Positions 1,858-19,952 of a stretch of DNA of 22,549 nucleotides are shown in pieces. The stretch is from a virus, in IMG/VR virus record IMGVR_UViG_3300007346_000276, positions 1 to 22,549 of that record. The stretch is one strand, 5' to 3'. A program made the translations under genes and the position numbers. The notes under the pieces were generated by a model. It ran no database searches and was not told the DNA's origin. It saw only the letters and a list, made by a program, of their open reading frames with translations. The number at the start of each line of letters is the position of its first letter. Positions within the stretch are counted from its first letter, which is position 1.

Positions 1858-2216
1858 TATGATATTACCACTGTTACTTGACCCGCTAGGGAGTTTATAT
1901 TTCTTCTTCTATTTTGTTCTGATCCATCATCAGGTTGCATGCCATTCGATTCAAAAGCAAAATCCCCTGGTAACGTTAAACTTACGGTTGTAAAGTTTTT
2001 ACCACCAGAATTAATATTAAAATCTTGTGCTCTTGAATTTTGTAAAGCAATAGCATCCGCAGTTACTTTTTTACGTCTAATTTGAGGATGTTTAGATTCA
2101 TATTCAGATATATGAACAAGTGAACCATTCCATTCTCTAACCATTTCTACATAGGGAAATGCCTGACCTGAACGATCAGATATTGCCATAGATCTTTTTC
2201 CTCTAGCCCAAGCCAT
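1857..2216 (-). CDS. Conserved neck/structural protein of unknown function
   Basis: This 119-aa protein has a diagnostic N-terminal stretch (AISDRSGQAFPYVEMVREWNG, then HISEYESKHPQ) that recurs in short-tailed marine phages beside the adaptor gene. The C-terminal half (residues 65-119) is beta-like, with GKNFTTVSLTLPGDFAF and GQVTVVIS. There is no membrane segment and no obvious catalytic motif. It overlaps both neighbours by one base. The position between two neck proteins suggests a connector component or an assembly factor, which is an inference from gene order only. Confidence 0.68.
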   Translation of the reverse strand: MAWARGKRSMAISDRSGQAFPYVEMVREWNGSLVHISEYESKHPQIRRKKVTADAIALQNSRAQDFNINSGGKNFTTVSLTLPGDFAFESNGMQPDDGSEQNRRRNINSLAGQVTVVIS

Positions 2217-2911
2217 TATACACCATCTCCAAAATAAGTTTGTGGCGAAATATACAAAGATGTTCTTGATCCATCTTCATCTAACGCTCTTTTCATTTCA
2301 TCTTCATATGCTAATTTTAACATTTGAGATCGGTCAATTGCATATTGAAAAGATAAATAATAAGCTAGCCCTGCTACCATACAAGGTAAAAATCTATAAA
2401 CTGCATCTGGATTATTAGAATAAGCTCCAGCATCTTCAATTCTTTTAACCACATAATATTTTAAATAAGTGTACGTATTTAAATCAGGTGCCTGATATAA
2501 ATAAATTTTAGGAGTGGTTAATCTAGAAACATAATATTGTGACGGTTGGCCAACAGAAAGTTTATTAGGAAGAGCAGCATAAGCAGATCTATCTATTTTA
2601 GTTAAAGATACATCTTGAGTATTTATCGTATCACTTCCTCCGCCTGTAGATGAAACAAATGCTTCTAACACATCGGAAACATCACTCGCCACTGTGTACT
2701 CAGCTTGTCCTGATACTAAAGCTACTTCATCTAATTCTATTTTCCAAAGATGAACTCCTCTATTTCCCCATTCAGAAAATAATATATTAAGATTTCTTCT
2801 AGCTCGTTTTAAATCATTCCCTGAATTAGGTCTTAATCCGCATCTGTTAAATGCTTCATCAATAACTTCTTCAATGGTTAAATTAAATGATGTAGTTCCT
2901 GATGTTGCCAT
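2216..2911 (-). CDS. Head-tail connector / neck protein
   Basis: This 231-aa protein opens with MATSGTTSFNLTIEEVIDEAFNRCG and continues with RARRNLNILFSEWGNRGVHLWKIE, a beta segment (residues about 60-140) and a helical C-terminus containing FLPCMVAGLAYYLS and LAYEDEMKRALDEDGSR. This combination is characteristic of a widespread family annotated as connector, tail-tubular-like or virion structural protein in podovirus-like phages, usually next to the adaptor. The start is the one-base TAATG overlap with the preceding gene. The exact ring it forms (second adaptor or nozzle) cannot be decided from sequence. Confidence 0.7.
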   Translation of the reverse strand: MATSGTTSFNLTIEEVIDEAFNRCGLRPNSGNDLKRARRNLNILFSEWGNRGVHLWKIELDEVALVSGQAEYTVASDVSDVLEAFVSSTGGGSDTINTQDVSLTKIDRSAYAALPNKLSVGQPSQYYVSRLTTPKIYLYQAPDLNTYTYLKYYVVKRIEDAGAYSNNPDAVYRFLPCMVAGLAYYLSFQYAIDRSQMLKLAYEDEMKRALDEDGSRTSLYISPQTYFGDGV

Positions 2912-3300
2912 TAAATTAATCCTTTATAATAATTCATCATTCCACCTTCTGATTTTTTTGCAAAGGTTGATACATTAGTAGGTTTAGGACCTACATTCCC
3001 TGCAGCTCTTTTTCTTGCAACAGCAGAACGCTTTTGTGCTTTTGTCATACGTGCAGCTTTTGCGGCAGGAACACATTTTGGGTAACTTCTTTTTGATCCA
3101 GTTGCTGATTTTCTTCCACATTCTTTATAACCTCCACCTTTTTTAGGAGCTGATATATCAACCCATTTTTCTTGAAACCATTTAGTTAGTCCTCCACTTT
3201 TCATACCAGTAGCAGGAACACAATTAGGAACCATTTTGTTTCCTTTCTTTTTCATTCCTTTTTGAACATAACCTTCCCAACATGTACCTCTTTTACTCAT
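2911..3300 (-). CDS. Small basic Cys-containing protein with DYYKG-type C-terminal tail
   Basis: This 129-aa, strongly basic protein has two related Cys segments: GTCWEGYVQKGMKKKGNK followed by MVPNCVPATG, and YKECGRKSATG followed by YPKCVPAAKAARM. Between them lies LTKWFQEKWVDISAPKKGG. I recall the W-EKWVD plus CGR plus YPKC arrangement from marine phages and giant viruses, but cannot name the family with certainty. Four Cys suggest metal binding or disulphides. The C-terminus reads EGGMMNYYKGLI, matching the ends of the next two genes. One-base overlaps join it to both neighbours. It could be a packaged nucleic-acid-binding protein, an inference from charge only. Confidence 0.68.
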   Translation of the reverse strand: MSKRGTCWEGYVQKGMKKKGNKMVPNCVPATGMKSGGLTKWFQEKWVDISAPKKGGGYKECGRKSATGSKRSYPKCVPAAKAARMTKAQKRSAVARKRAAGNVGPKPTNVSTFAKKSEGGMMNYYKGLI

Positions 3301-3527
3301 TACAAAATATCCTTATAGTAATCATTCTTACTCATAAAGCCACCCATACTTTTTTTATAAATGTCTTTATGAATCTCTCTTGTTTCTTTTTTAGCTTGTT
3401 CAAAAGCAGAGTCCTTTGACATGTTTACACTCATCTCATCATAAAGTTTTTTAAAAGTGCTTTGAACTTTTTTAGAAGCACCAGGGAAAGCTTTTTTAGC
3501 CATATCTAAAATAAGTCTTCCAGCCAT
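3300..3527 (-). CDS. Small helical protein of unknown function, shared C-terminal tail
   Basis: This 75-aa protein is highly charged and predicted helical over residues 5-58 (LILDMAKKAFPGASKKVQ, then KKLYDEMSVNMSKDSAFEQA). The end, MGGFMSKNDYYKDIL, resembles those of the genes on either side (NYYKGLI and DYYKGMI). It has no signal peptide, membrane segment or catalytic motif. It overlaps the genes on both sides by one base in the TAATG form, so the three proteins are probably made from one message in similar amounts. I do not recognise a named family. Confidence 0.6.
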   Translation of the reverse strand: MAGRLILDMAKKAFPGASKKVQSTFKKLYDEMSVNMSKDSAFEQAKKETREIHKDIYKKSMGGFMSKNDYYKDIL

Positions 3528-3859
3528 TAAATCATTCCTTTATAATAATCTTCGTAACTTTTATTAGAAACGTATTCTCCGTCACCTATTTCTGATTTAA
3601 TATATGAACCATTGTATTCTGTTCGCTTTGAATACTCTGAAGAAGTTTCAGTTTCCATTTTTGGTCTATGCATTTTAGCATGATCCATAATGGTTCCTTT
3701 AGAAGCTTTCTTTGGTCCCCAGTCTTTTCTTTTTACTCCAGATGGATCTTTTATTTTACCAGCGCATATTTTAGACGCATAAGCGTTTGCATAGGCACTT
3801 GGATATACCTTAAATTTTCGTTTTGCCGCAGCTTTGCCACGTGCACATAACTTGGTCAT
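3527..3859 (-). CDS. Small basic protein with RGKAAAKRKFKVYPSAYANA motif
   Basis: This 110-aa protein starts at ATG 3859 behind GAGGAG. Residues 4-35 carry the motif CARGKAAAKRKFKVYPSAYA followed by NAYASKICAGK, which I recognise from many marine phage and giant-virus proteins of unknown function. The two Cys flank the motif. The rest is a hydrophilic linker with KRKDWGPKKASKG, then Ser/Tyr/Glu-rich sequence, ending YEDYYKGMI. That tail resembles those of the next two genes downstream. It may be a minor virion or DNA-associated protein; nothing in the sequence proves this. Confidence 0.68.
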   Translation of the reverse strand: MTKLCARGKAAAKRKFKVYPSAYANAYASKICAGKIKDPSGVKRKDWGPKKASKGTIMDHAKMHRPKMETETSSEYSKRTEYNGSYIKSEIGDGEYVSNKSYEDYYKGMI

Positions 3860-5385: not shown

Positions 5386-5583
5386 TTACCAATTACTAGT
5401 TGATTTAGTTACTTTGTGTGCTAATACTTTTCCTTTGTTAGAACCATGTTTAACAACATATCCTGAAGTACCATTTGCATTAATATCTACTTCATGTCTC
5501 GCACTAAATAATGCTTTAGCTTTAGAAAGTAATGATTGTTCTTTATTTCTGTTTTTAAATAAATGAGTAAATCTATTTATCAT
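5386..5583 (-). CDS. Small basic protein of unknown function
   Basis: This 65-aa protein begins MINRFTHLFKNRNKEQSLLS, continues KAKALFSARHEVDINANG and ends VLAHKVTKSTSNW. It is basic, has no membrane segment and no Cys, and looks like an N-terminal amphipathic helix followed by a small beta segment. It overlaps the end of the preceding gene by four bases (ATGA) and lies 3 bp from the next gene, so it belongs to the same message. I do not recognise a family. Confidence 0.55.
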   Translation of the reverse strand: MINRFTHLFKNRNKEQSLLSKAKALFSARHEVDINANGTSGYVVKHGSNKGKVLAHKVTKSTSNW

Positions 5584-6236
5584 ACATCCTCCTTTTTTAT
5601 TTCTTCCACATTATAAAACATATTATCCGTATCTTCTACTTGGAAATCAGAATCTTCTACCGACCACTCGGTAGTTTGGACATGATAGTCAGGCCAATTG
5701 TTTTTAACAGTATAATTAGAAGCATGCCAAAGAATGCGATTATTAGGCTGAATAGCAAAATTCCCGTTATCAAGTTGGATAACATGGCCACACTTATGTT
5801 CTTGAGGGATTTCACTATGTTCTGTATTAAGAATATTATTATCTGGATGCGCCCAATCAATCGTAAATAAATACGATCCATGATAAAATTTTTTATCTTT
5901 TCCAAGATATTTACCTTTGATTCCGTTTAAAAAATCAAACTGATGGACACTAGGATAATAACTAAAGCAATCCCACAGTTCCAAGGAGTCAAGCGACATA
6001 TCGGGCACTTCGGCTCTTTGTAAATGTTTTTGGAAAAAAGCTGAGATAGGCAGGCGATAGTAGACCGCACCGTTAGGGAGCATCGCGTGAAATAAGACTG
6101 CACGTCCTGGTATCGATGCAAGACCGAAGATAACTGCGTCTTCGCTTTCTCCATGATGTTTTTTAAAATCATAAAGATATTCCTTTCTTATTTGACAATA
6201 AATTGTCGGTGTATTTGCATTGAGATAAGTTGCCAT
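5580..6236 (-). CDS. Conserved marine-phage protein of unknown function (218 aa)
   Basis: This 218-aa soluble protein is rich in aromatic residues, His and Asp. Segments include AVIFGLASIPGRAVLFHAML, GAVYYRLPISAFF, LELWDCFSYYPSVHQFDFL, GSYLFTIDWAHPD, HKCGHVIQLDNGNFAIQPNN and RILWHASNY. The Trp/Asp/Asn-rich middle and end resemble a family I recall from marine phages in which the protein is always hypothetical. No nuclease, kinase or peptidase motif is evident. The acidic C-terminus contrasts with the basic neighbours. It begins directly after the stop of the DUF6321-like gene (TAAATG). A beta-sandwich binding protein is a guess. Confidence 0.65.
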   Translation of the reverse strand: MATYLNANTPTIYCQIRKEYLYDFKKHHGESEDAVIFGLASIPGRAVLFHAMLPNGAVYYRLPISAFFQKHLQRAEVPDMSLDSLELWDCFSYYPSVHQFDFLNGIKGKYLGKDKKFYHGSYLFTIDWAHPDNNILNTEHSEIPQEHKCGHVIQLDNGNFAIQPNNRILWHASNYTVKNNWPDYHVQTTEWSVEDSDFQVEDTDNMFYNVEEIKKEDV

Positions 6237-6545
6237 TTAACATTTCCACCTTCTCCTTGCAGCACAAATTCTTTTATCTGGAGTTTTACTACAATTAACA
6301 TTGTGCATTTTCATTTGACCAGCACTCCTTGCACAATAAGATTTTCTTCTTGCTGCACGTTTTGGTCCTGGTTTGTCTTCTGTAACTGCAGTTTTTAATT
6401 TACTTCCAGGGTTTTTTCTTCTGTAAGCCATGACACCCGCTTGTGTCATACCCGCTCCACTTTTAGTGGAGCGATAGTATTTTTTACTTCGAGGAGGCAT
6501 GCCTCCTTTTTTGAATCCTAAGATATCCGCGTAGTAACTATCCAT
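6237..6545 (-). CDS. Small Arg/Cys-rich protein, DUF6321-like
   Basis: This 102-aa, very basic protein contains MTQAGVMAYRRKNPGSKLKT followed by AVTED, then KRAARRKSYCARSAGQMK and a C-terminal DKRICAARRRWKC. The order AYRRxNPGSKLKTAVT, RRKSxCAR, ALRRWxC is what I remember as the DUF6321 family of marine phages. Four Cys (72, 85, 94, 102) suggest a small metal-binding fold. The N-terminus MDSYYADILGFKKGGMPP repeats the YY-x-DIL and GGM elements seen at the C-termini of other small proteins here. It overlaps the preceding gene by 8 bp. A DNA-binding or packaged role is plausible but unproven. Confidence 0.7.
   Translation of the reverse strand: MDSYYADILGFKKGGMPPRSKKYYRSTKSGAGMTQAGVMAYRRKNPGSKLKTAVTEDKPGPKRAARRKSYCARSAGQMKMHNVNCSKTPDKRICAARRRWKC
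6430..6507. repeat. Three consecutive perfect inverted repeats inside a gene
   Basis: Within the first third of the DUF6321-like gene there are three adjacent perfect inverted repeats: atgacac/gtgtcat (6430-6436 and 6443-6449), cgctccac/gtggagcg (6453-6460 and 6466-6473), and the 16-base palindrome aggaggcatgcctcct (6492-6507). The first two have loops of 6 and 5 bases. They could fold as serial hairpins in the message near the start of the gene. They lie in coding sequence, so coincidence of codon choice is possible. Confidence 0.5.
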
Positions 6546-6916: not shown

Positions 6917-7372
6917 TTAGCTTAAGTTATTATTTTGTATATACAAAACAGTAACTGTAGCAGCACCTGTTGATCCATCACCATTCTGTGGAGTGAAATC
7001 AGCTAATACCTGAATATCAGTTGCTCCAACATCAGTTGCTTCAGTATCTAAAGTTCCTCTAGTTGTACCCAGTGCTTTAACGTTTACCGCTGCTAAAAAA
7101 GCATCCGCATCTCCAGCTGTTCCCACAGAAACAGTTGCTGTTCCAGTGTCGTTGTTAACTGTAGTTACGTTTAAAATTACATCTACGATTTGTGAATTAG
7201 CTGGTATGGTAGCTATTACCTGATCGTTAGCTGCTGCACCTATAATATCAATTACTTTTGATTGTGCCATTACTACTGAACCAACGTTAGAAACATTTGT
7301 TCCTACTGTAGTTCCAGTTGTGTTAAAAATATTTCCAGCTTTAATTGGACCTGAAAAAGTTGTGTTTGCCAT
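6917..7372 (-). CDS. Conserved beta-type structural protein (151 aa)
   Basis: This 151-aa protein begins MANTTFSGPIKAGNIFNTTG and is rich in Thr, Val, Ala, Gly and Asn. Residues 45-75 read AANDQVIATIPANSQIVDVI then LNVTTVNND, and residues 80-88 read VSVGTAGDA. The NTTFSGPI start, IPANSxIxDV and VSVGTAGDAD motifs recur in marine-phage structural proteins located just after the capsid gene. It ends with two short beta strands (GAATVTVLYIQ). It is the first gene after the terminator that follows the capsid gene, and may be transcribed from its own promoter. Likely a head fibre or decoration protein; the class is inferred. Confidence 0.7.
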   Translation of the reverse strand: MANTTFSGPIKAGNIFNTTGTTVGTNVSNVGSVVMAQSKVIDIIGAAANDQVIATIPANSQIVDVILNVTTVNNDTGTATVSVGTAGDADAFLAAVNVKALGTTRGTLDTEATDVGATDIQVLADFTPQNGDGSTGAATVTVLYIQNNNLS

Positions 7373-7524: not shown

Positions 7525-8442
7525 TTAACTAGTTGGTAAGTTTCCGTTACCAAATACACATCTTGGATCAGAGAATCCAAAAGAGTATCTTTCTCTAGCT
7601 TTGAATCTTACGTTACCTGTATCGAAGTCACCTTCCATAGCAGTTTTGATCGGTGATCTTACGAAATGCTTGAATCCGTTAGGAGCATCTGTAAGGATAA
7701 AGAATGAATCAGTGTCAGTTAAGAAGTTGTTCACTCTGTAACCTTCAGGAATCATTCCCATGTTCACCAATGCATTAATGTCATTGTCAGCTGTGCCGAC
7801 TCTTTGAGGTGATTTCATCAATCTCTCTGCAGTAAATTGTAATTCTTTTGGAATTATCATTTTTTTACCTTGAAGAGCGATTTTTAATCCTCTTTCGTCA
7901 ACAAAACCAGCAATATCGATTAACGACTGCTCTAGTGATGTTTCGTTCAAGTCAGCAGCAGTTGCTAATACGTTTGAGAACGTACCGCCTGTTGCTAATG
8001 GATGCGCACTGTTGATTAAAGACACACCGTCACCACCGATTGCAGTAGTAACTTGCGCGTTGTTTAATACAGCCGCAGCTTTGACTTGTTTTGTGTTAGA
8101 CATAGATCTTGCTAATGCTCTAGTATATCTAGCTGCAAGTCTGTCATACAGATTATCTTCGATAGCTTCTTCAGTAATTGAGAATGCTAAAGCGATAGTT
8201 TCGTGTGTGTATCTAGCAGTGAAAGTTTCAGTTGCTTGATCGAACACAACGCCCGCACCTTCTTGTTTAGTTGGTGCAGAACCGAAACCAGCTAACATTA
8301 CTTCTTCTTCAAAAGCTCTGTCAGATGTTTCAGCTGGGAAAATTTCCGCATGCTGATTTTCGTATCTGTTATATTCCAGGCCGAATAGTGCATTCAATCC
8401 TGGCTCTAGTTCTTTAACTAGCTGTGATCGTGAAATAGCCAT
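7525..8442 (-). CDS. Major capsid protein (HK97 fold)
   Basis: This 305-aa protein is the size of a compact HK97-fold major capsid protein without delta domain. Features seen are an N-terminal arm (residues 1-35), an extended loop region rich in beta strands (40-80, with VFDQATETFTARYTHETI), a long spine helix (about 88-125, AFSITEEAIEDNLYDRLAAR onward), the P-domain with GLKIALQGKKMIIPKELQ, and the C-terminal beta part with ERYSFGFSDPRCVFGNG. The start has a GGAG-type site. It follows a decoration-like gene and the scaffold, as expected for a head operon, and is followed by a strong terminator. Base composition is slightly less AT-rich than its neighbours, as is common for highly expressed genes. 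Confidence 0.9.
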   Translation of the reverse strand: MAISRSQLVKELEPGLNALFGLEYNRYENQHAEIFPAETSDRAFEEEVMLAGFGSAPTKQEGAGVVFDQATETFTARYTHETIALAFSITEEAIEDNLYDRLAARYTRALARSMSNTKQVKAAAVLNNAQVTTAIGGDGVSLINSAHPLATGGTFSNVLATAADLNETSLEQSLIDIAGFVDERGLKIALQGKKMIIPKELQFTAERLMKSPQRVGTADNDINALVNMGMIPEGYRVNNFLTDTDSFFILTDAPNGFKHFVRSPIKTAMEGDFDTGNVRFKARERYSFGFSDPRCVFGNGNLPTS

Positions 8443-9563: not shown

Positions 9564-10526
9564 TTATGCATTCTCCTTCACGTATTTTGCGTATTCCTCT
9601 AGTGGCACTCCTAATTTTTTAGCGATAGCTATTTGTGAACGAGTGAGTTTCACTGATCGGCGTCCGCTTTGGTTTCTTTGTGCAGATGCGACAGTTTGGA
9701 CGGGTTTCTGTAGCTCCTGTTTCTTGCCAAATTTATGAGGGAAATTTTCTCTCATAACTTTGTCTATCTCATTATAGTACTCATCGCTTTCCGCGTCAAA
9801 CCCTTGGTCCACGAGGTCTTGATGTACTTGGAATGCAGCACTTGTCATTATTTTATCCGCTCCAAACCATTCGTTTTTCTCTGCCCAAGATTTCGCTCTG
9901 ACAGATGGTTCTGGATAGGTTGGATTCTGAGGTGCTTGAGTAGGTTCCTGAGAAACTTGTTTTTGTCGAGTATTTTCTTTTTCATCTTCTTGTTCAGCAG
10001 TCATTTTAGCTTTTTCAGCCTCTACTGCTAACTTAGCGATTAAAGAATTTGCATCAGCTATTTTATCTGCATCTTGTTCTGCAATGGCATCTCTTAAAGC
10101 AACCTTTGCTTTCTCTTGTTCTGCAGCAACTCTAGCCGAGTATTGCTCAACATAACTTTTACTTGTTTTAGAAAACCTAGAACTTGTATCTTCAAGTTGT
10201 TTTTTAAGAGACTTAGCATAATCTAAAGCTGCTTTTTCTCTTCTTTCATGTTCTCTAACTTTAAAAGTTAATTTATTGATTCTTTTTTGTACAGATTCAG
10301 AAATAGAACCTAAGTCATCCTTAACTTCTTCTTTCTTGTCTTCTGTTTCCTCAACGGAAATTTTTTCAATGCCTTGAGGTTTAGATTCAGTATAACCTAA
10401 ATCTACTTCCTCTCTTGGTAATTGAGGTTCTTTTGATTCTTCTGTTGTGTTTTCTACCTCAACAGATTGTTCTTGAATACCATCTGTGTCTAATTCCACT
10501 TCTGGTGATTTGTTTTCTTCTAACAT
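9564..10526 (-). CDS. Head scaffolding protein
   Basis: This 320-aa protein is highly charged. Residues 1-80 are very acidic (Glu-rich), residues about 85-200 form a long helix/coiled coil with many Lys, Glu, Ala and Gln (VQKRINKLTFKVREHERREK, AARVAAEQEKAKVALRDAIA), and a Pro/Gln-rich linker follows. A more conserved end includes SAAFQVHQDLVDQGFDAESD, EYYNEIDKVMRENFPHKFG and the C-terminal LTRSQIAIAKKLGVPLEEYA. That order, and its place before the capsid gene, fits phage scaffolding proteins, which drive prohead assembly and bind capsid through a C-terminal helix. No protease motif is seen, so removal of the scaffold would need a host or other protease, or exit without cleavage. Confidence 0.8.
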   Translation of the reverse strand: MLEENKSPEVELDTDGIQEQSVEVENTTEESKEPQLPREEVDLGYTESKPQGIEKISVEETEDKKEEVKDDLGSISESVQKRINKLTFKVREHERREKAALDYAKSLKKQLEDTSSRFSKTSKSYVEQYSARVAAEQEKAKVALRDAIAEQDADKIADANSLIAKLAVEAEKAKMTAEQEDEKENTRQKQVSQEPTQAPQNPTYPEPSVRAKSWAEKNEWFGADKIMTSAAFQVHQDLVDQGFDAESDEYYNEIDKVMRENFPHKFGKKQELQKPVQTVASAQRNQSGRRSVKLTRSQIAIAKKLGVPLEEYAKYVKENA

Positions 10527-11304: not shown

Positions 11305-11690
11305 TTTTGTTTATTCATGTTTATTACGTCAGTTGCTTTAAGTCCATATATGGCAGCCACAACTGAAACCCAAAGGCCAACAATCCACCAAGGCATTTCT
11401 TGTAATTTTTGAAAATAAAGATCGATTTTTTGTTGCATCTTTTCGTCTTCTGCAAATACAGAATACGCTAATAAAAACAGAGGTGATGAAATTGTCAAAA
11501 GTACGAATTCGTCCTTCCAATCGTTTTTCTGATTTTCAAAAACTTTACCCGTGTATTCAATTTCTCCACGCTTCATCTTTTCTGCATGTAATAATGCAGC
11601 TTCAGACATAGCTACTTCTGATTTTTTCTTATTTTTGTAAATATCTAGACCTGCTTTAAGTCCTTGTCCTAATAAACCCCACGGAAACAT
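11301..11690 (-). CDS. Probable holin (GTA 3TM-holin-like)
   Basis: This 129-aa protein has an amphipathic start (MFPWGLLGQGLKAGLDIYKN), a charged helix (SEAALLHAEKMKRGEIEYTG, then KVFENQKNDWKDE) and two strong hydrophobic segments at residues 62-80 (FVLLTISSPLFLLAYSVFA) and 99-117 (MPWWIVGLWVSVVAAIYGL). The KDEFVLLxxSxPL block before the first segment and the PWW..GL..SV.AAIYGLK block match the family named for holins of gene transfer agents. Such a protein would permeabilise the inner membrane and time lysis. It is some 7 kb from the endolysin gene, which is acceptable since both are late genes. Only two segments are certain. Confidence 0.68.
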   Translation of the reverse strand: MFPWGLLGQGLKAGLDIYKNKKKSEVAMSEAALLHAEKMKRGEIEYTGKVFENQKNDWKDEFVLLTISSPLFLLAYSVFAEDEKMQQKIDLYFQKLQEMPWWIVGLWVSVVAAIYGLKATDVINMNKQK

Positions 11691-12043
11691 TATTTAACTC
11701 CTGTAAATTTAAATCCTTTAATTTGAATTCCATTATTACCAGGATACATATTTTTTAATGAACTGTCTCTATAAGGACATCCACCTTTATTTAAATCTTG
11801 TGTTCGTATAGTTTTTTTACTTTTATTCTTTAACATAATTTCAGGTGTTCTGTAAATTTGAATATCTTTTTCTCCTGAAAGCTGTCGATTTGTTTTAAAA
11901 TCATGCAGTGTAAGAACTTCTTTTTCTGTATAAGATTTATCTATAAATGCTTTTTGAGTTGGATCTATTCCTTGAGGGTTAGGGCCTCTTAGGGGAGGAG
12001 GCCCTGATCTTTTGCCAGAAATTTTATGCTTTTCGTTTGCCAC
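11690..12043 (-). CDS. Small basic protein with GGCPYR and IKGxKFTGV tail
   Basis: A longer reading frame is open upstream but would run 128 bp into the preceding gene. I place the start at GTG 12043, a 20-bp overlap. The 117-aa protein begins VANEKHKISGKRSGPPPLRG and contains YTEKEVLTLHDFKTNRQLSG, then GGCPYRDSSLKNMYPGNNG, and ends IQIKGFKFTGVK. The end resembles that of another protein here (18290-18490: GGECRGSKAIKGKKFSGVF). I recall short marine-phage proteins with CPYRE and IQVKGKKFIGV ends. It shares one base with the holin gene. Function unknown. Confidence 0.62.
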   Translation of the reverse strand: MANEKHKISGKRSGPPPLRGPNPQGIDPTQKAFIDKSYTEKEVLTLHDFKTNRQLSGEKDIQIYRTPEIMLKNKSKKTIRTQDLNKGGCPYRDSSLKNMYPGNNGIQIKGFKFTGVK

Positions 12044-12785
12044 TTTTTTGCTTCTTTCTCGCTTCAGAAAGCGCAATAGCAATTGCTTGTTTTCTATTTT
12101 TAACTTTTTTCTTAGACTTACCAATATTGAGTTCGCCTTTTTTATACTCACCCATTACTTTTTTAATTTTACTTTCTCCACCTTTACTAAACATTCCTTT
12201 TTTCTTAGCTAACATACCTAGACCAAGTAACCCTGCTCCAGCAATTTTTTTATTAGCCATTAGTAATCCAAGGTTGGCTTTTTTTACTTTCATTCCTTTT
12301 TTCTTTGCTTGTAACATTTTAAAATCTTCTCCAGTAATTTTTCCATCTTTGTTAGCATCAATTTTAGCTTGACCACCGATTAACATTTTTTTCATAACTT
12401 TACCGCCATATTTTTTTCCCATGGTTTTTGATTTTTCAATAAATTCTTTTGTTGTTTTTGCTAATTTATTTAAACCATCATTTTTTCCTATTTCATATCC
12501 AGCATAACCTGTGGCACCCATAATATTAGCTTTTTTAAATGTTTCTTTTACAGAAGATTTTCCTGCTTTTTCTAAAAGAGAGGAAGCGTTTTTTGATCCT
12601 GCTCCTAATATAGCTCTTCTCGTTAAAAAAGCACCTGTAGTTCCCATACCCATGCTTTTATTAAAATCATCTTGCATAGGATTGATTGAAAGTGTATTTT
12701 TATTTCCAGACGCTGCTGGAAGAGTTCCAATTGATTTGTAAAAATTTTTATACTTACCCTCTAGGCCCAGTTTTTTTCCCGACAT
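12024..12785 (-). CDS. Internal virion-type protein with EF-hand loop and DUF6496-like end
   Basis: The start is set at ATG 12785, six bases after GGAG; nine codons of an upstream TTG-initiated frame are discarded. The 253-aa protein is very rich in Lys, Gly and Ala. It has Gly/Ala-rich stretches (ILGAGSKNASSLLEKAG, NIMGATGYAGYEIG, IAGAGLLGLGMLA), an EF-hand-like loop at 143-154 (DANKDGKITGED, with D143, N145, D147, G148 and D154 in the usual positions), and a C-terminal block KKVMGEYKKGELNIG then VKNRKQAIAIALSEARKKQK that matches what I remember as DUF6496. It overlaps the portal gene end by 32 bp. It may be a packaged internal protein; calcium binding is predicted, not shown. Confidence 0.65.
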   Translation of the reverse strand: MSGKKLGLEGKYKNFYKSIGTLPAASGNKNTLSINPMQDDFNKSMGMGTTGAFLTRRAILGAGSKNASSLLEKAGKSSVKETFKKANIMGATGYAGYEIGKNDGLNKLAKTTKEFIEKSKTMGKKYGGKVMKKMLIGGQAKIDANKDGKITGEDFKMLQAKKKGMKVKKANLGLLMANKKIAGAGLLGLGMLAKKKGMFSKGGESKIKKVMGEYKKGELNIGKSKKKVKNRKQAIAIALSEARKKQKSGKRKA

Positions 12786-15588: not shown

Positions 15589-17916
15589 CTACAATATTGG
15601 TTTGAATATGTTGGTTTTATCTACAAAACCACCCTCATACATATAAGCTTTAAAAGGCAATAAAAACTTCTTTAATACTTCATTGGGAGCAACTAAAGTT
15701 GGAACCATTTCATAATTTTTAGGACTATCAGGACTAAGTTCAATTACTTGTAGCTTTCCTCTCATGCTATTTCTAGACTCTGTTTGAGCTTTAATCATAT
15801 TAATAGTTTCTAAGTCATCCGCAGCTGCAAGATGATTTTCATAAATATATTTTTTCCCTTTTTTTGTATTAAAATGTTTTCTTCCTAATTGAATAGCTGT
15901 ATTATCTGGTTGTTCCGTAGCCACTTCTATTTCTTCAATTAATTTAAATCTTTTATTTGGATTAGATTTTGGCATAGGCATAATTTCATACTTTGCTCCA
16001 TACTGTTTTGCAATTCTTTTTAAAGATTCATTTAAATCAGAAAGTTTAGAAGATTTTATGATGGATCCCTCTTGGCCTCTTCCAAGTTGAGCTCCTTTAG
16101 CATCTACTCTAGTTAATCTTGTACCATCCATCAATCCATAATTAATTTCATTTCCAATTTTTCCAGAACTGAACAAACCTTTTATGTTTTGATTTATAGG
16201 TGCAGGAACTACAGAGATGGCATTAATATTTTTCTCCGCCATCGTTCTTAATAAATCTTTAATCACATAATCATTCATGTTTACACCTAAAGGACCATAA
16301 GTGGTATCCTCAATAGTTCCTCTTTTAGATAATGTGCTTAAGGCATTTTTATCCAGTTGTTGTAATTGATACATCAATCGACTCTTAGCTTGTTCTTGAT
16401 TTCGTGTTAATGCACCTCGTCCAATTTCTGTATACGGAGTGAGTTGATCTAAAATTTTTTGACGTTTCATTTTCATATCTTGAATCTGAGCATCTGCATT
16501 AAACGTATTAACTCGGTTCCTAAAAAATTTTTCTCTTGTATCTTGGCTACTTGCTTTACCACTTGAGTGTAAATCCGATTGAACTTCTGATAATCTAATA
16601 TGTCTTACTCCTCCTAATTTAGGATTAGGTAAATCATCAAATCGTGCAAACACTAATTCTTTATTATCAAAATAATGTGGAGAACCTTCTACGTATTTAA
16701 AAGCATCTTTGGTTGTGTTAGGAATTTTAGAATCTAATACATAAACATTTTCTGTAAAATTTTCTCCTCCAAGAAGATTATATTGACCTTCTCCATATCC
16801 TTTATATCTTGGATAATAATCTGGTTTACTTCTTCCCCCTTTTGGATTCCAAGTAATATTCCCTGATTTAAAGATGTTAGGTGGATACAATGAAGTTGCC
16901 CTTAAATTATATTCTCCAACCGTTGCATTAAAGTTTCGTAAAAATTCTCTTGCGTCGCTAGAAACTTCTGGAACCTTTCTTGATAAATCTATTACTTTTT
17001 GTTGTAGTGTATTAATATCTTGAGGAGAAAAAGGTGCTCCTCCAAACTGATAATTTGAAAAATTCTCATCAAAGATATTATCGATAGATTGTTGGTAAGA
17101 AATTTTTGCTGCACTTCTTTTTCCTTCATCAGGTATCTTTTCAATAATATTTCTAAAACTTGTTTGAAGTTTAGTAATATCGGATTCAGGAGCCCCTGGA
17201 ATATCTAATACTACTTTTTTAATTTTATTAATCGGACTGTTTTTAATGGTGGTTAATAACATATCTCGATCTATTTCTAGATTGTTATCTAAAGCGTATT
17301 GCAAAAAGCCTGAAGGCTGACCATCGGGTCCTTTTAAATATAAATTCAGGTCTGCCAGTTCCTCTCTTTGAACTTGTCGCGAAACTCCTGCTAAGGGTCC
17401 TGATGTAACTCGTAGGTCTCCTCGGTTTGCATCATCTAACCATTTAATCCATTGTTTCGCTGGAGCTTTATCAAAAGGAGCTTCCATGACTCGATCAAAG
17501 GCAGGGGAACCTACTAGTGGATTGGTTGCTTTGTATCCTGCACCATAAGAAAATGGAATGTCTTGTACTTCTCCCATTCGTGATTTCGATACCACTAAAT
17601 CTCTTCCTGTCGTTACTAACTCTGAAGCTTGTCCAGTGGCCGTTGGTAGGTTTCCTGTTTCCACAGGTTTATTGATACTGTAAGTATTTATTTTAGGAGG
17701 TGCTTTGGAAACTTTAAAATAATTTCGTACACCAGGTATTCTTCTTCCAAGAGCAGTTGCTCCTAACACGGTAGCACCGAGCGCCATCAACCCGCCAACC
17801 GCCGACGGATCCGAATCCTCTACTGGAGTAACAACAGTTGTTTGTTGTTCTACAGGAGCTGCGGAACCTTTCTTGATGGACTCAATAAAAGTTTGTGGGT
17901 TGATTAGATCTGCCAT
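15589..17916 (-). CDS. Large internal/polyvalent-type protein (775 aa)
   Basis: The start is placed at ATG 17916 (TAATG junction); a TTG three codons upstream is discarded. Residues 39-57 are a Gly/Ala-rich hydrophobic stretch (AVGGLMALGATVLGATALG). Residues 150-240 (PAKQWIKWLDDANRGDLRV, then EELADLNLYL and LQYALDNNLEIDRDML) and 380-455 (SPHYFDNKELVFARFDD, RHIRLSEVQSDLH with E444-x-Q-S-D-x-H450) resemble two linked modules in very large phage and plasmid proteins called polyvalent proteins. Residues about 540-570 (MNDYVIKDLLRTMAEKNINA) fit the segment that normally follows. The C-terminus is EGGFVDKTNIFKPIL. It is probably a virion-packaged, possibly ejected protein; its activity is unknown. 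Confidence 0.72.
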   Translation of the reverse strand: MADLINPQTFIESIKKGSAAPVEQQTTVVTPVEDSDPSAVGGLMALGATVLGATALGRRIPGVRNYFKVSKAPPKINTYSINKPVETGNLPTATGQASELVTTGRDLVVSKSRMGEVQDIPFSYGAGYKATNPLVGSPAFDRVMEAPFDKAPAKQWIKWLDDANRGDLRVTSGPLAGVSRQVQREELADLNLYLKGPDGQPSGFLQYALDNNLEIDRDMLLTTIKNSPINKIKKVVLDIPGAPESDITKLQTSFRNIIEKIPDEGKRSAAKISYQQSIDNIFDENFSNYQFGGAPFSPQDINTLQQKVIDLSRKVPEVSSDAREFLRNFNATVGEYNLRATSLYPPNIFKSGNITWNPKGGRSKPDYYPRYKGYGEGQYNLLGGENFTENVYVLDSKIPNTTKDAFKYVEGSPHYFDNKELVFARFDDLPNPKLGGVRHIRLSEVQSDLHSSGKASSQDTREKFFRNRVNTFNADAQIQDMKMKRQKILDQLTPYTEIGRGALTRNQEQAKSRLMYQLQQLDKNALSTLSKRGTIEDTTYGPLGVNMNDYVIKDLLRTMAEKNINAISVVPAPINQNIKGLFSSGKIGNEINYGLMDGTRLTRVDAKGAQLGRGQEGSIIKSSKLSDLNESLKRIAKQYGAKYEIMPMPKSNPNKRFKLIEEIEVATEQPDNTAIQLGRKHFNTKKGKKYIYENHLAAADDLETINMIKAQTESRNSMRGKLQVIELSPDSPKNYEMVPTLVAPNEVLKKFLLPFKAYMYEGGFVDKTNIFKPIL

Positions 17917-18290
17917 TACTTCCAACCTTTCTTAGCTAACTTAGGATATCCTTTAATTAAACCGCCTGTAGATTTATCATCTACAAATTTAGACAAATCA
18001 GGTTTTGCTTTTTCCCCGAACTTTTTACTATATTTAATTTGTATATTCCATTCATCAGGAATTTTTGCATTCCAACTTTCAGAACCACCAGGGAAATTAA
18101 CTTTACCTTTATCAAATTGTTTTCCTAGCATGCCAGATATACTAAAGCCTTTACCTAAATCTGCTTCTCCTTGTAAACCATACATACCTGCTTTTCCTTT
18201 TACACTAACATTTTTTGCGGGAGTAGATTTATAAGAACTTATGTTAGCAATAGGTTTAATTTTTATGTTTGGTTTACTTTTTTCAACCAT
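17916..18290 (-). CDS. Small beta-type protein with GGLIKGYPKLAKKGWK tail
   Basis: This 124-aa protein is Lys/Gly-rich. The middle alternates like beta strands (NVSVKGKAGMYGLQGEADLG, KGFSISGMLGKQF, NIQIKYSKKFG), resembling a small porin-like or beta-sheet repeat. The end, DKSTGGLIKGYPKLAKKGWK, is a recurrent tail (GGxIKGYPKxAKKG) that I recall from marine phages. It overlaps both neighbours by one base in TAATG form. No membrane helix or catalytic motif is present. It sits between a tiny protein and the 775-aa protein, so it probably acts with them in the virion or in head assembly. Confidence 0.64.
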   Translation of the reverse strand: MVEKSKPNIKIKPIANISSYKSTPAKNVSVKGKAGMYGLQGEADLGKGFSISGMLGKQFDKGKVNFPGGSESWNAKIPDEWNIQIKYSKKFGEKAKPDLSKFVDDKSTGGLIKGYPKLAKKGWK

Positions 18291-18490
18291 TAGAATACTC
18301 CGCTAAATTTTTTTCCTTTAATAGCTTTGGATCCTCGACACTCTCCACCCATGTTCATTTTAGGTGCTTCATAACTAATCGTTTGATCCTCTTGTTCGTA
18401 AGCTTCTTGTGGAAGACCTTTAGTTCTGTCGTTTTCAAATGATTCAATCATTTCTTCCATTTCGGATTTCTTTTTCTTTTTATCAGGCAT
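18290..18490 (-). CDS. 66-aa acidic/Lys protein with GGECR and IKGKKFSGV tail
   Basis: I use ATG 18490, an 8-bp overlap with the end of the terminase gene; the longer frame from TTG 18511 is rejected because its extension only reads the terminase gene end in another frame. The protein reads MPDKKKKKSEMEEMIESFEN, a charged helix, then a linker, then NMGGECRGSKAIKGKKFSGV and F. The end resembles that of the protein at 11690-12043. Proteins with CRGxGxAIKGxKFxGV ends are, in my memory, common in marine phages, often beside the terminase. Function unknown. Confidence 0.62.
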   Translation of the reverse strand: MPDKKKKKSEMEEMIESFENDRTKGLPQEAYEQEDQTISYEAPKMNMGGECRGSKAIKGKKFSGVF

Positions 18491-19952
18491 AGTATTTATA
18501 TTCTCCTTCAATTTTCATTGGTTCTGGTTCATCCATATAAGTTGATACGAAATTACCTTGACGATATCTTAACACAGCTTGTGTTGTACTATCTACAAAA
18601 TCATCATACTGACCATAAGGAAATGCTGCGCATTCTTCAATAACTTCCTCTGCAAAATGCTCTCCATGAGGATAGTAAACATTACCTGACTCAAATACAG
18701 GAGCACAAGCATTTACTCTAGAATGTTTATCTTTACCACGGGTAGGTACGAAATCCATTACAGGAATACCTGCTCTACGCATCTCTTGAATGAGCGGTTG
18801 GCCAGTGGCCTTTGCCTCTACAATAATGGACTCTGGTTCCCAATACTTATATGCTTCCATAGCGACTGCTTTTAGTTCTGGAAAATCCCAACGACCTTTT
18901 TCTGCGTCTAATAAAATTAAAGCATTCTCCCCTGGACTAGGTTCAAATATCCCCCATGTTGTAATGGCAGAATAGTCTGCAGTTTCTTTTTTAGAAAATG
19001 CTGTATCATAACTTTGGATAATATGTTTTAAATCTGGAACCTGTCCTTTCCAAGGCTGCCACCATTCACGTTTTAAGATTGCGCCTTCCTCGGCCACTGG
19101 GTCCTGCATGTACTGTGCATTCCAGTTTCTAGGTGAGATAGATGCCTTAACACCTTCTAGTTCTTCGAGTGACCAATACTCTGGCCAAACAGGATTACCT
19201 GATTGTAAGATGGCAGGAAATTCTATTAACTTCCATTTATCCGCTTTAGGTTCACTTTGTGCTTTGATGAGTCTTCCTGTAATATCGTCTTGAGCCCAAC
19301 GGGTCATAACAACGACAATGGTTCCTCCTGGTTGCAAACGTTGTCTGGGTCCTGAATTGTACCAGTCATACGCTCTCTCCATAGCTGAATCGGATAATGA
19401 GTCTTGTTCGGTATGTGGATCGTCGATAATAAGTAAGTCCGCCCCTCGTCCTGTGATAGAACCGCCTACACCCGCTGCAAAATATTCCCCACCATGATTG
19501 GTCTCCCATCGGCCTTTTGCCTTACTATCTTCTCGTAGTTTAACATCTCCGAAGATCTGTTTATACTCTGGGCTATCAATTAAGTTACGAACCTTACTTC
19601 CGAACCTTCCTGCAAGTTCTGCGTTGTGAGATACCTGCATAATTTTTTTCTTAGGAAACTTCCCTATGAACCAAGCTGGAAATAAATAGGATGCAAATTC
19701 AGATTTAGTATGACGTGGGGGCATATTAACAATGAGCCTCTTATTCAAACCTTTTGAAATTTTAGTAAGTTCGTCGGCAATATGTTGATGGTGGCCCCAT
19801 TTCTTTGGGTCCTTTTCTTTTCTACAAATAAAATCTGGCCAAACAGTTTGAACAAAATACAAGAAATTATCTTGGCACAGTTTAATGTGTTCAATATATA
19901 ATTTTTCGACTCTATCGCGCAACTGTTCAGTTGTAAGTAATTCGTGCGACAT
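18483..19952 (-). CDS. terL: Terminase large subunit
   Basis: I place the start at ATG 19952 (MSHELLTTEQ); the frame is open 24 codons further up, without a better site. The 489-aa protein has the packaging ATPase at residues 70-230: Walker A-like MPPRHTKSE (77-85), Walker B LLIIDDP (173-179) and the coupling motif VVVMTRWAQDD (213-223). The RNase-H-like nuclease follows, with acidic residues in QSYDTAFS (D316), IIVEAKATG (E379) and YDDFVDSTTQA (D451, D454). It cuts concatemers and drives DNA into the prohead through the portal. No small terminase is recognised in this window; one of the unknown upstream genes might supply it. Confidence 0.93.
   Translation of the reverse strand: MSHELLTTEQLRDRVEKLYIEHIKLCQDNFLYFVQTVWPDFICRKEKDPKKWGHHQHIADELTKISKGLNKRLIVNMPPRHTKSEFASYLFPAWFIGKFPKKKIMQVSHNAELAGRFGSKVRNLIDSPEYKQIFGDVKLREDSKAKGRWETNHGGEYFAAGVGGSITGRGADLLIIDDPHTEQDSLSDSAMERAYDWYNSGPRQRLQPGGTIVVVMTRWAQDDITGRLIKAQSEPKADKWKLIEFPAILQSGNPVWPEYWSLEELEGVKASISPRNWNAQYMQDPVAEEGAILKREWWQPWKGQVPDLKHIIQSYDTAFSKKETADYSAITTWGIFEPSPGENALILLDAEKGRWDFPELKAVAMEAYKYWEPESIIVEAKATGQPLIQEMRRAGIPVMDFVPTRGKDKHSRVNACAPVFESGNVYYPHGEHFAEEVIEECAAFPYGQYDDFVDSTTQAVLRYRQGNFVSTYMDEPEPMKIEGEYKYYA

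Follow-up and report, generated by a model that had tools for sequence, protein, structure and literature searches.

What raises the question here is a shared ending on proteins that otherwise look unrelated. Three adjacent minus-strand genes (3859-2911) in the window, i.e. the whole stretch of 22,549 nucleotides analysed here, end YYKGMI, YYKDIL and YYKGLI, exactly as an earlier note on this DNA had recorded. That note had proposed for the common tail a sorting tag, a binding peptide for one partner or a protease recognition site. We asked how the tail is distributed, whether it is the peptide or the underlying DNA that is conserved, and which role could best account for it. In the open-access literature searched for conserved end motifs in pelagiphages, for the DUF names and for HTVC023P, nothing was found on these tails, and by that search the end tag has not previously been described for these phages.

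The window and its phage group

The closest relative of this 22.5-kb virus record is Pelagibacter phage HTVC023P (blastn 73.7% across 52% of a 5.7-kb stretch). Profile matches identify a terminase, a portal, an MCP and an SU10-type adaptor; the MCP and a putative scaffold are encoded at 7525-8442 and 9564-10526. The window falls among the HTVC023P-type pelagiphages, an ocean phage group whose members carry the tagged proteins and have SAR11 bacteria as hosts. Most of the tailed genes are located between the portal/MCP and the head-tail adaptor genes. The features under study are listed in Table 1.

Table 1. Tailed proteins, their motif copies and the adjoining adaptor gene in the window
Feature	Position	Strand	Remarks
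Head-tail adaptor (SU10_adaptor)	2216..2911	-	E 1.3e-9; often the next gene after a tailed protein
Protein C, 129 aa	2911..3300	-	phrog_23735, E 3e-28; ends ...GGMMNYYKGLI
Tail of C, YYKGLI	2914..2931	-	Followed by the gene of the SU10-type head-tail adaptor (2216-2911)
Protein B, 75 aa	3300..3527	-	Ends ...SKNDYYKDIL
Tail of B, YYKDIL	3303..3320	-	
Protein A, 110 aa	3527..3859	-	phrog_27331, E 8e-19; ends ...SYEDYYKGMI
Tail of A, YYKGMI	3530..3547	-	AAAGGA ahead of the following ATG; stop and start overlap in TAATG
Protein N, 102 aa, DUF6321 domain	6237..6545	-	E 2.3e-14
N-terminal motif copy, MDS-YYADIL	6519..6536	-	Followed by the linker GFKKGGM

Some annotations in this group deserve attention in their own right. 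For the gene at 5580-6236(-) of the window, the PHROG match is 3704 (ferredoxin; E 1e-77), which conflicts with the annotation of its HTVC023P and HTVC027P relatives as phosphoribosylaminoimidazole synthetase. The product of 6917-7372(-) is an Rz-like spanin according to PHROG (E 3e-6); a DSL-LC04 protein found in the same place, with the same C-terminal end (TVLYIQNNNLS), is annotated as a cement protein, and the spanin label is apparently mistaken. In HTVC023P, another C-terminus, GGSG[IV]V[IV]IRYKFQ, is common to four putative fibre-like proteins encoded in a row (gp59-gp62; L141 6241-11937).

Unrelated bodies with a common end

Protein A consists of an invariant basic core, MTKLC.RGKAAAKRKFKVYPSAYAN (aa 1-55), a disordered linker and the tail. 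Protein C is composed of two Cys-containing modules (CWEGYVQKGMKKKGNKMVPNCVP and GLTKWFQEKWVDI..SYPKCVP..), a GG linker and the tail, its two halves matching each other weakly (E 0.04-0.12, BLASTP), and close homologues of protein B were retrieved in five contigs only. The families phrog_27331 and phrog_23735, both of unknown function, cover the bodies of A and C respectively and not the end motif, and the score of C against DUF5872 (PF19197), 23.3 bits, is below the Pfam gathering cut-off of 27.5. A PDB sequence search with A, C and N returned no significant relative. In the AlphaFold model of A, helices are predicted at 6-32 and the linker is disordered, with low confidence; a short terminal helix is placed over the motif, also at low confidence. 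The models of A and N suggest a layout combining an ordered domain with a flexible terminal anchor.

The best BLASTP cross-hit among the cores of A, B, C, N and the g53 type described below has an E value of 1.4 over 14 residues. The bodies are thus unrelated, as the earlier note had stated, and the duplication of one gene, which it had considered as a trivial origin of the tails, is excluded.

Chance was the other trivial origin. Across related viral contigs, the density of the tail YY[KG][DG][LMI][ILM] at C-termini is about 500 times that within proteins. Counts were based on the motif class [YF][YF]x[GD][ILMV][ILMVFY], for which composition predicts 4.8e-5 per position; in the fetched loci (1,814 unique proteins), its non-C-terminal rate is close to this expectation, and a large share of the few non-C-terminal occurrences is accounted for by the N family and its N-terminal copy. 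The class ends 152 proteins, for 0.03 expected by the internal rate and about 0.35 by composition, in a set biased by the use of the tailed A, B and C as homology queries for its loci. Over the whole of IMG/VR, a DNA pattern for YYKD[hydrophobic][I/M]-stop was present in at least 120 stretches, versus 17 for the permuted control YKYD..-stop of the same composition; the tail is therefore commoner than composition predicts, and a composition-level frequency is excluded.

Tail classes and their exchange

Bodies were assigned to families by their core. In related viral contigs, the tail defined above (class I) is carried by at least six unrelated bodies: A, B, C, the N-terminal module of C alone, the g53 type (HTVC023P gp53, ending ...LIPGKSLDYYKDIM), the CPPGF[IV]N family (L177, L214, L235 and relatives) and small proteins (L086, L123, L190, L244). 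The other tails were grouped into class II (RGxGAAIRGTNF[KQ]GV[FK]), class III (TK[MF]K[YI][VL]) and class IV (KRKxTK).

The core of A is near-invariant for about 50 residues; beyond it come a variable linker and one of several tails, with 104 A-core ORFs in class I, 42 in class II, 3 in class III and 2 in class IV. The same core occurring with three or four tail types indicates that tails are exchanged, and identical A-core peptides have different tail classes in six cases. A quick tree of the A core DNA, weak since it relies on ~160 bases, needed 17 switches between classes I and II, where shuffled labels needed 36 on average, suggesting that tails are partly inherited, yet often switched; switching is more firmly documented by the identical cores. 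A strict genome-wide co-variation of the tail classes of A and C was not seen, classes I and II coexisting in one genome, and class III alone was paired between A and C, in three loci.

Homologues lacking the tail, a further objection anticipated in the earlier note, were indeed found: none of the recognised tails ends 55 of the C-core and 15 of the A-core ORFs, and in HTVC106P, CRP-207 and DSL-LC04, which are outside the group, as well as in many C homologues, the modules occur without a class I tail. Modules without the tail count against the docking role proposed below; in some lineages the tail is thus either not needed or exchanged for one of another type.

Class II tails are also found in the window, at the end of the proteins encoded at 18290-18511(-) (...KAIKGKKFSGVF) and 11690-12151(-) (...IQIKGFKFTGVK), and they end HTVC023P gp32, gp51 and many A homologues, this class being common to unrelated bodies too. 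The 778-aa protein encoded at 15589-17925(-) has no family match, and its end, YEGGFVDKTNIFKPIL, resembles the class III tail (GGIINQTKMKYV).

The N-terminal copy in protein N

The segment MDSYYADIL at the start of the protein encoded at 6237-6545 had been read as a reversed form of the tail. This reading has to be corrected: the order YY-x-D-I-L is kept, at the other end of the protein. Protein N scores 54.2 bits for DUF6321 (PF19846), above the Pfam gathering cut-off of 28.5. A Gly-Gly linker separates MDSYYADIL from its folded domain, and the N family has the N-terminal motif in the same residue order with GG next. The AlphaFold model of N displays an ordered core (mean pLDDT 79), a low-confidence linker and, again at low confidence, a short helix over the motif; a fold search with this model gave no match.

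The N-terminal motif of N and the class I tail of C tend to go together: of 47 loci, 28 contain both and 14 lack both, with 2 and 3 mixed (Fisher 2e-7). This value ignores common descent and is based on an N-motif pattern widened after seeing the data. The corresponding count of independent pairs, with 4 supported and means of 2.5 same and 0.5 opposite, is underpowered.

A putative docking peptide for loading proteins into the head

The motif is common to unrelated bodies, conserved at the protein level, exchanged as a module and used at either end of proteins. Together with the Gly-rich linker, these properties favour the sorting tag or binding peptide of the earlier note, and its third proposal, a protease site, finds no support, the motif being at the extreme end and no cleavage consensus being seen. 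We propose, with a probability of roughly 45%, that YY[KG][DG][LMI][ILM] is a terminal docking peptide loading small basic proteins into or onto the head, by analogy with the systems compared below. It would act as a short linear motif on a flexible, often Gly-Gly linker, carried C-terminally by A, B, C, g53 and other proteins and N-terminally by N, and would dock these small basic proteins onto one common partner during head assembly. The partner would be a head component, either the scaffold or the capsid protein; the tag would be required for loading, and the cargo might act on the packaged DNA or after ejection.

Support for head loading comes from the location of the genes between portal/MCP and adaptor and from cyanophage relatives of N. 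In T4-like cyanophages, the N module ends longer proteins or stands alone. Two of the stand-alone proteins start MKTYSQFIEE (P-SSM7_194) or MKTFKQYITE (S-SZBM1 gp084), close to the capsid-targeting sequence of T4, the IpII propeptide MKTYQEFIAE (PMC9026906), at the position occupied by MDSYYADILGFKKGG in the pelagiphage N proteins. Moreover, the C-terminus of S-CREM2 ORF137 has 72% identity to N over 71 aa, and MS of CsCl-purified virions detected this protein through 4 unique peptides (PMC10665884 Table 3). On the other side, S-SZBM1 gp084 is absent from the 30 detected proteins of that phage (PMC9146016).

Both S-SZBM1 gp084 (L276 3704-4201) and P-SSM7_194 (L277 2186-2704) are annotated as hypothetical and begin with a T4-like capsid-targeting sequence; in several cyanophages, neighbouring genes start MKSFxxFLSE or MKTYQELM. 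Modules similar to C, to the N-terminal module of C, to N and weakly to A are also found in one 699-aa protein, of the S-CAM9 gp114 type of T4-like cyanophages, where, unlike in the window, they are fused in one chain whose end has no YY tail. A linker motif, YEPEGE[QLV]I, is repeated in S-CAM9 gp114 (L274 2981-5080).

Like the motif described here, the T4 capsid-targeting sequence (IPI-III, Alt) is a short terminal peptide common to divergent small basic proteins of one phage. It is however N-terminal, about 10 residues long (MKTYQEFIAE) and removed by the gp21 protease at [LI]xE, whereas the pelagiphage motif is a YYx[DG]-hydrophobic pair and mostly C-terminal. The T4 consensus was found only in the cyanophage homologues, N starting with MDSYYADIL and A, B and C being tagged C-terminally, and the [LI]xE cleavage site is absent from the three tails and from MDSYYADIL. 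The scan of window proteins showed no separate prohead protease, the MCP itself giving a weak match to head protease families. By consensus and cleavage site, the motif is not a T4 capsid-targeting sequence, and the likeness would be one of function, by analogy and not by membership.

The encapsulin cargo-loading peptide (CLP) offers a second comparison. This end peptide of ~10 residues occurs on unrelated cargo, usually at the C-terminus and on some at the N-terminus, and its binding site is a hydrophobic pocket on the inside of an HK97-fold shell (PMC7355545). The arrangement is the same in the pelagiphages, where one terminal peptide is carried by unrelated proteins, mostly C-terminally and sometimes N-terminally, and the window encodes an MCP of a head-protein family. 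The two differ by their sequence and by the shell, a nanocompartment for the encapsulin and putatively a tailed-phage capsid here.

Alternative explanations

The peptide-level evidence would fit equally well a genuine docking peptide whose partner is outside the head, such as a host protein, the membrane/lysis machinery or a replication/transcription complex. An M15 endolysin gene adjoins genes A and C in the window, HTVC023P and HTVC106P, and this proximity makes such a role possible; among isolate records, a single one gave an A-family match at E 1e-5, and its host is SAR11. We consider this explanation rather unlikely, given the position of most tailed genes between head and adaptor genes, the homologous module in S-CREM2 virions and the T4-type targeting sequence of the stand-alone cyanophage homologues.

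The extensive shuffling of tails and bodies, and the near identity in DNA of some A and g53 tails, could also suggest that the conserved end is a DNA boundary, or linker, where homologous recombination swaps gene modules and which is kept for the exchange itself. This is improbable, because the amino acids do not share the free variation of third codon positions, tails such as YYGGMID and YYKDLM follow the same pattern with different DNA, and the N-terminal copy sits in another DNA context.

The tail could finally be a by-product of translation, the Shine-Dalgarno and overlapping start of the next gene being read as protein, or the tail hitch-hiking with the downstream initiation region. In the window, the bases of the tails do double as a Shine-Dalgarno: all three contain AAAGGA or AAGGA (Lys-Gly/Lys-Asp codons), with an overlapping TAATG start a few bases further on, and the adaptor gene directly follows many tailed genes. 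In the wider set, however, a listed Shine-Dalgarno motif is correctly placed before an overlapping start in only 53/237 distinct tails. A gap precedes the next start for 37/37 g53-type and 46/88 C-type genes, 44 of these having a separate Shine-Dalgarno after the stop. Tails in YYKD are usually encoded with AAAGAY, a poor Shine-Dalgarno, the genes downstream of tails are of several different kinds, and the N-terminal copy in N cannot serve this purpose. The codons themselves vary, freely for Tyr (TAT/TAC) and Asp (GAT/GAC) and also for Lys, and this variation, together with the gaps, points to selection on the peptide. A Shine-Dalgarno as the cause of the tail is thus largely refuted and retains very little probability.

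C-terminal hydrophobic residues can act as protease recognition signals, and it is just as improbable that the tail is a degradation or anti-degradation signal for the host ClpXP or another protease, its invariant YY being several residues from the end, with up to five variable residues after it, and the motif being N-terminal in N.

Conclusions

If the proposed docking onto the head is correct, a tentative extension is that the interchangeable terminal tags (the YYx[DG]-hydrophobic pair, RGxGAAxRGxxFxGVF and TKMKYV) form a general cargo-loading code of HTVC023P-type pelagiphages, which would bring a changing repertoire of small basic proteins into the heads and could act from either end of the cargo. 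For a head-loading tag, virion cargo would be recognisable from the last few residues of a protein, unknown proteins would be given a testable role, and the peptide could serve for packing proteins of choice into the head of a podovirus.
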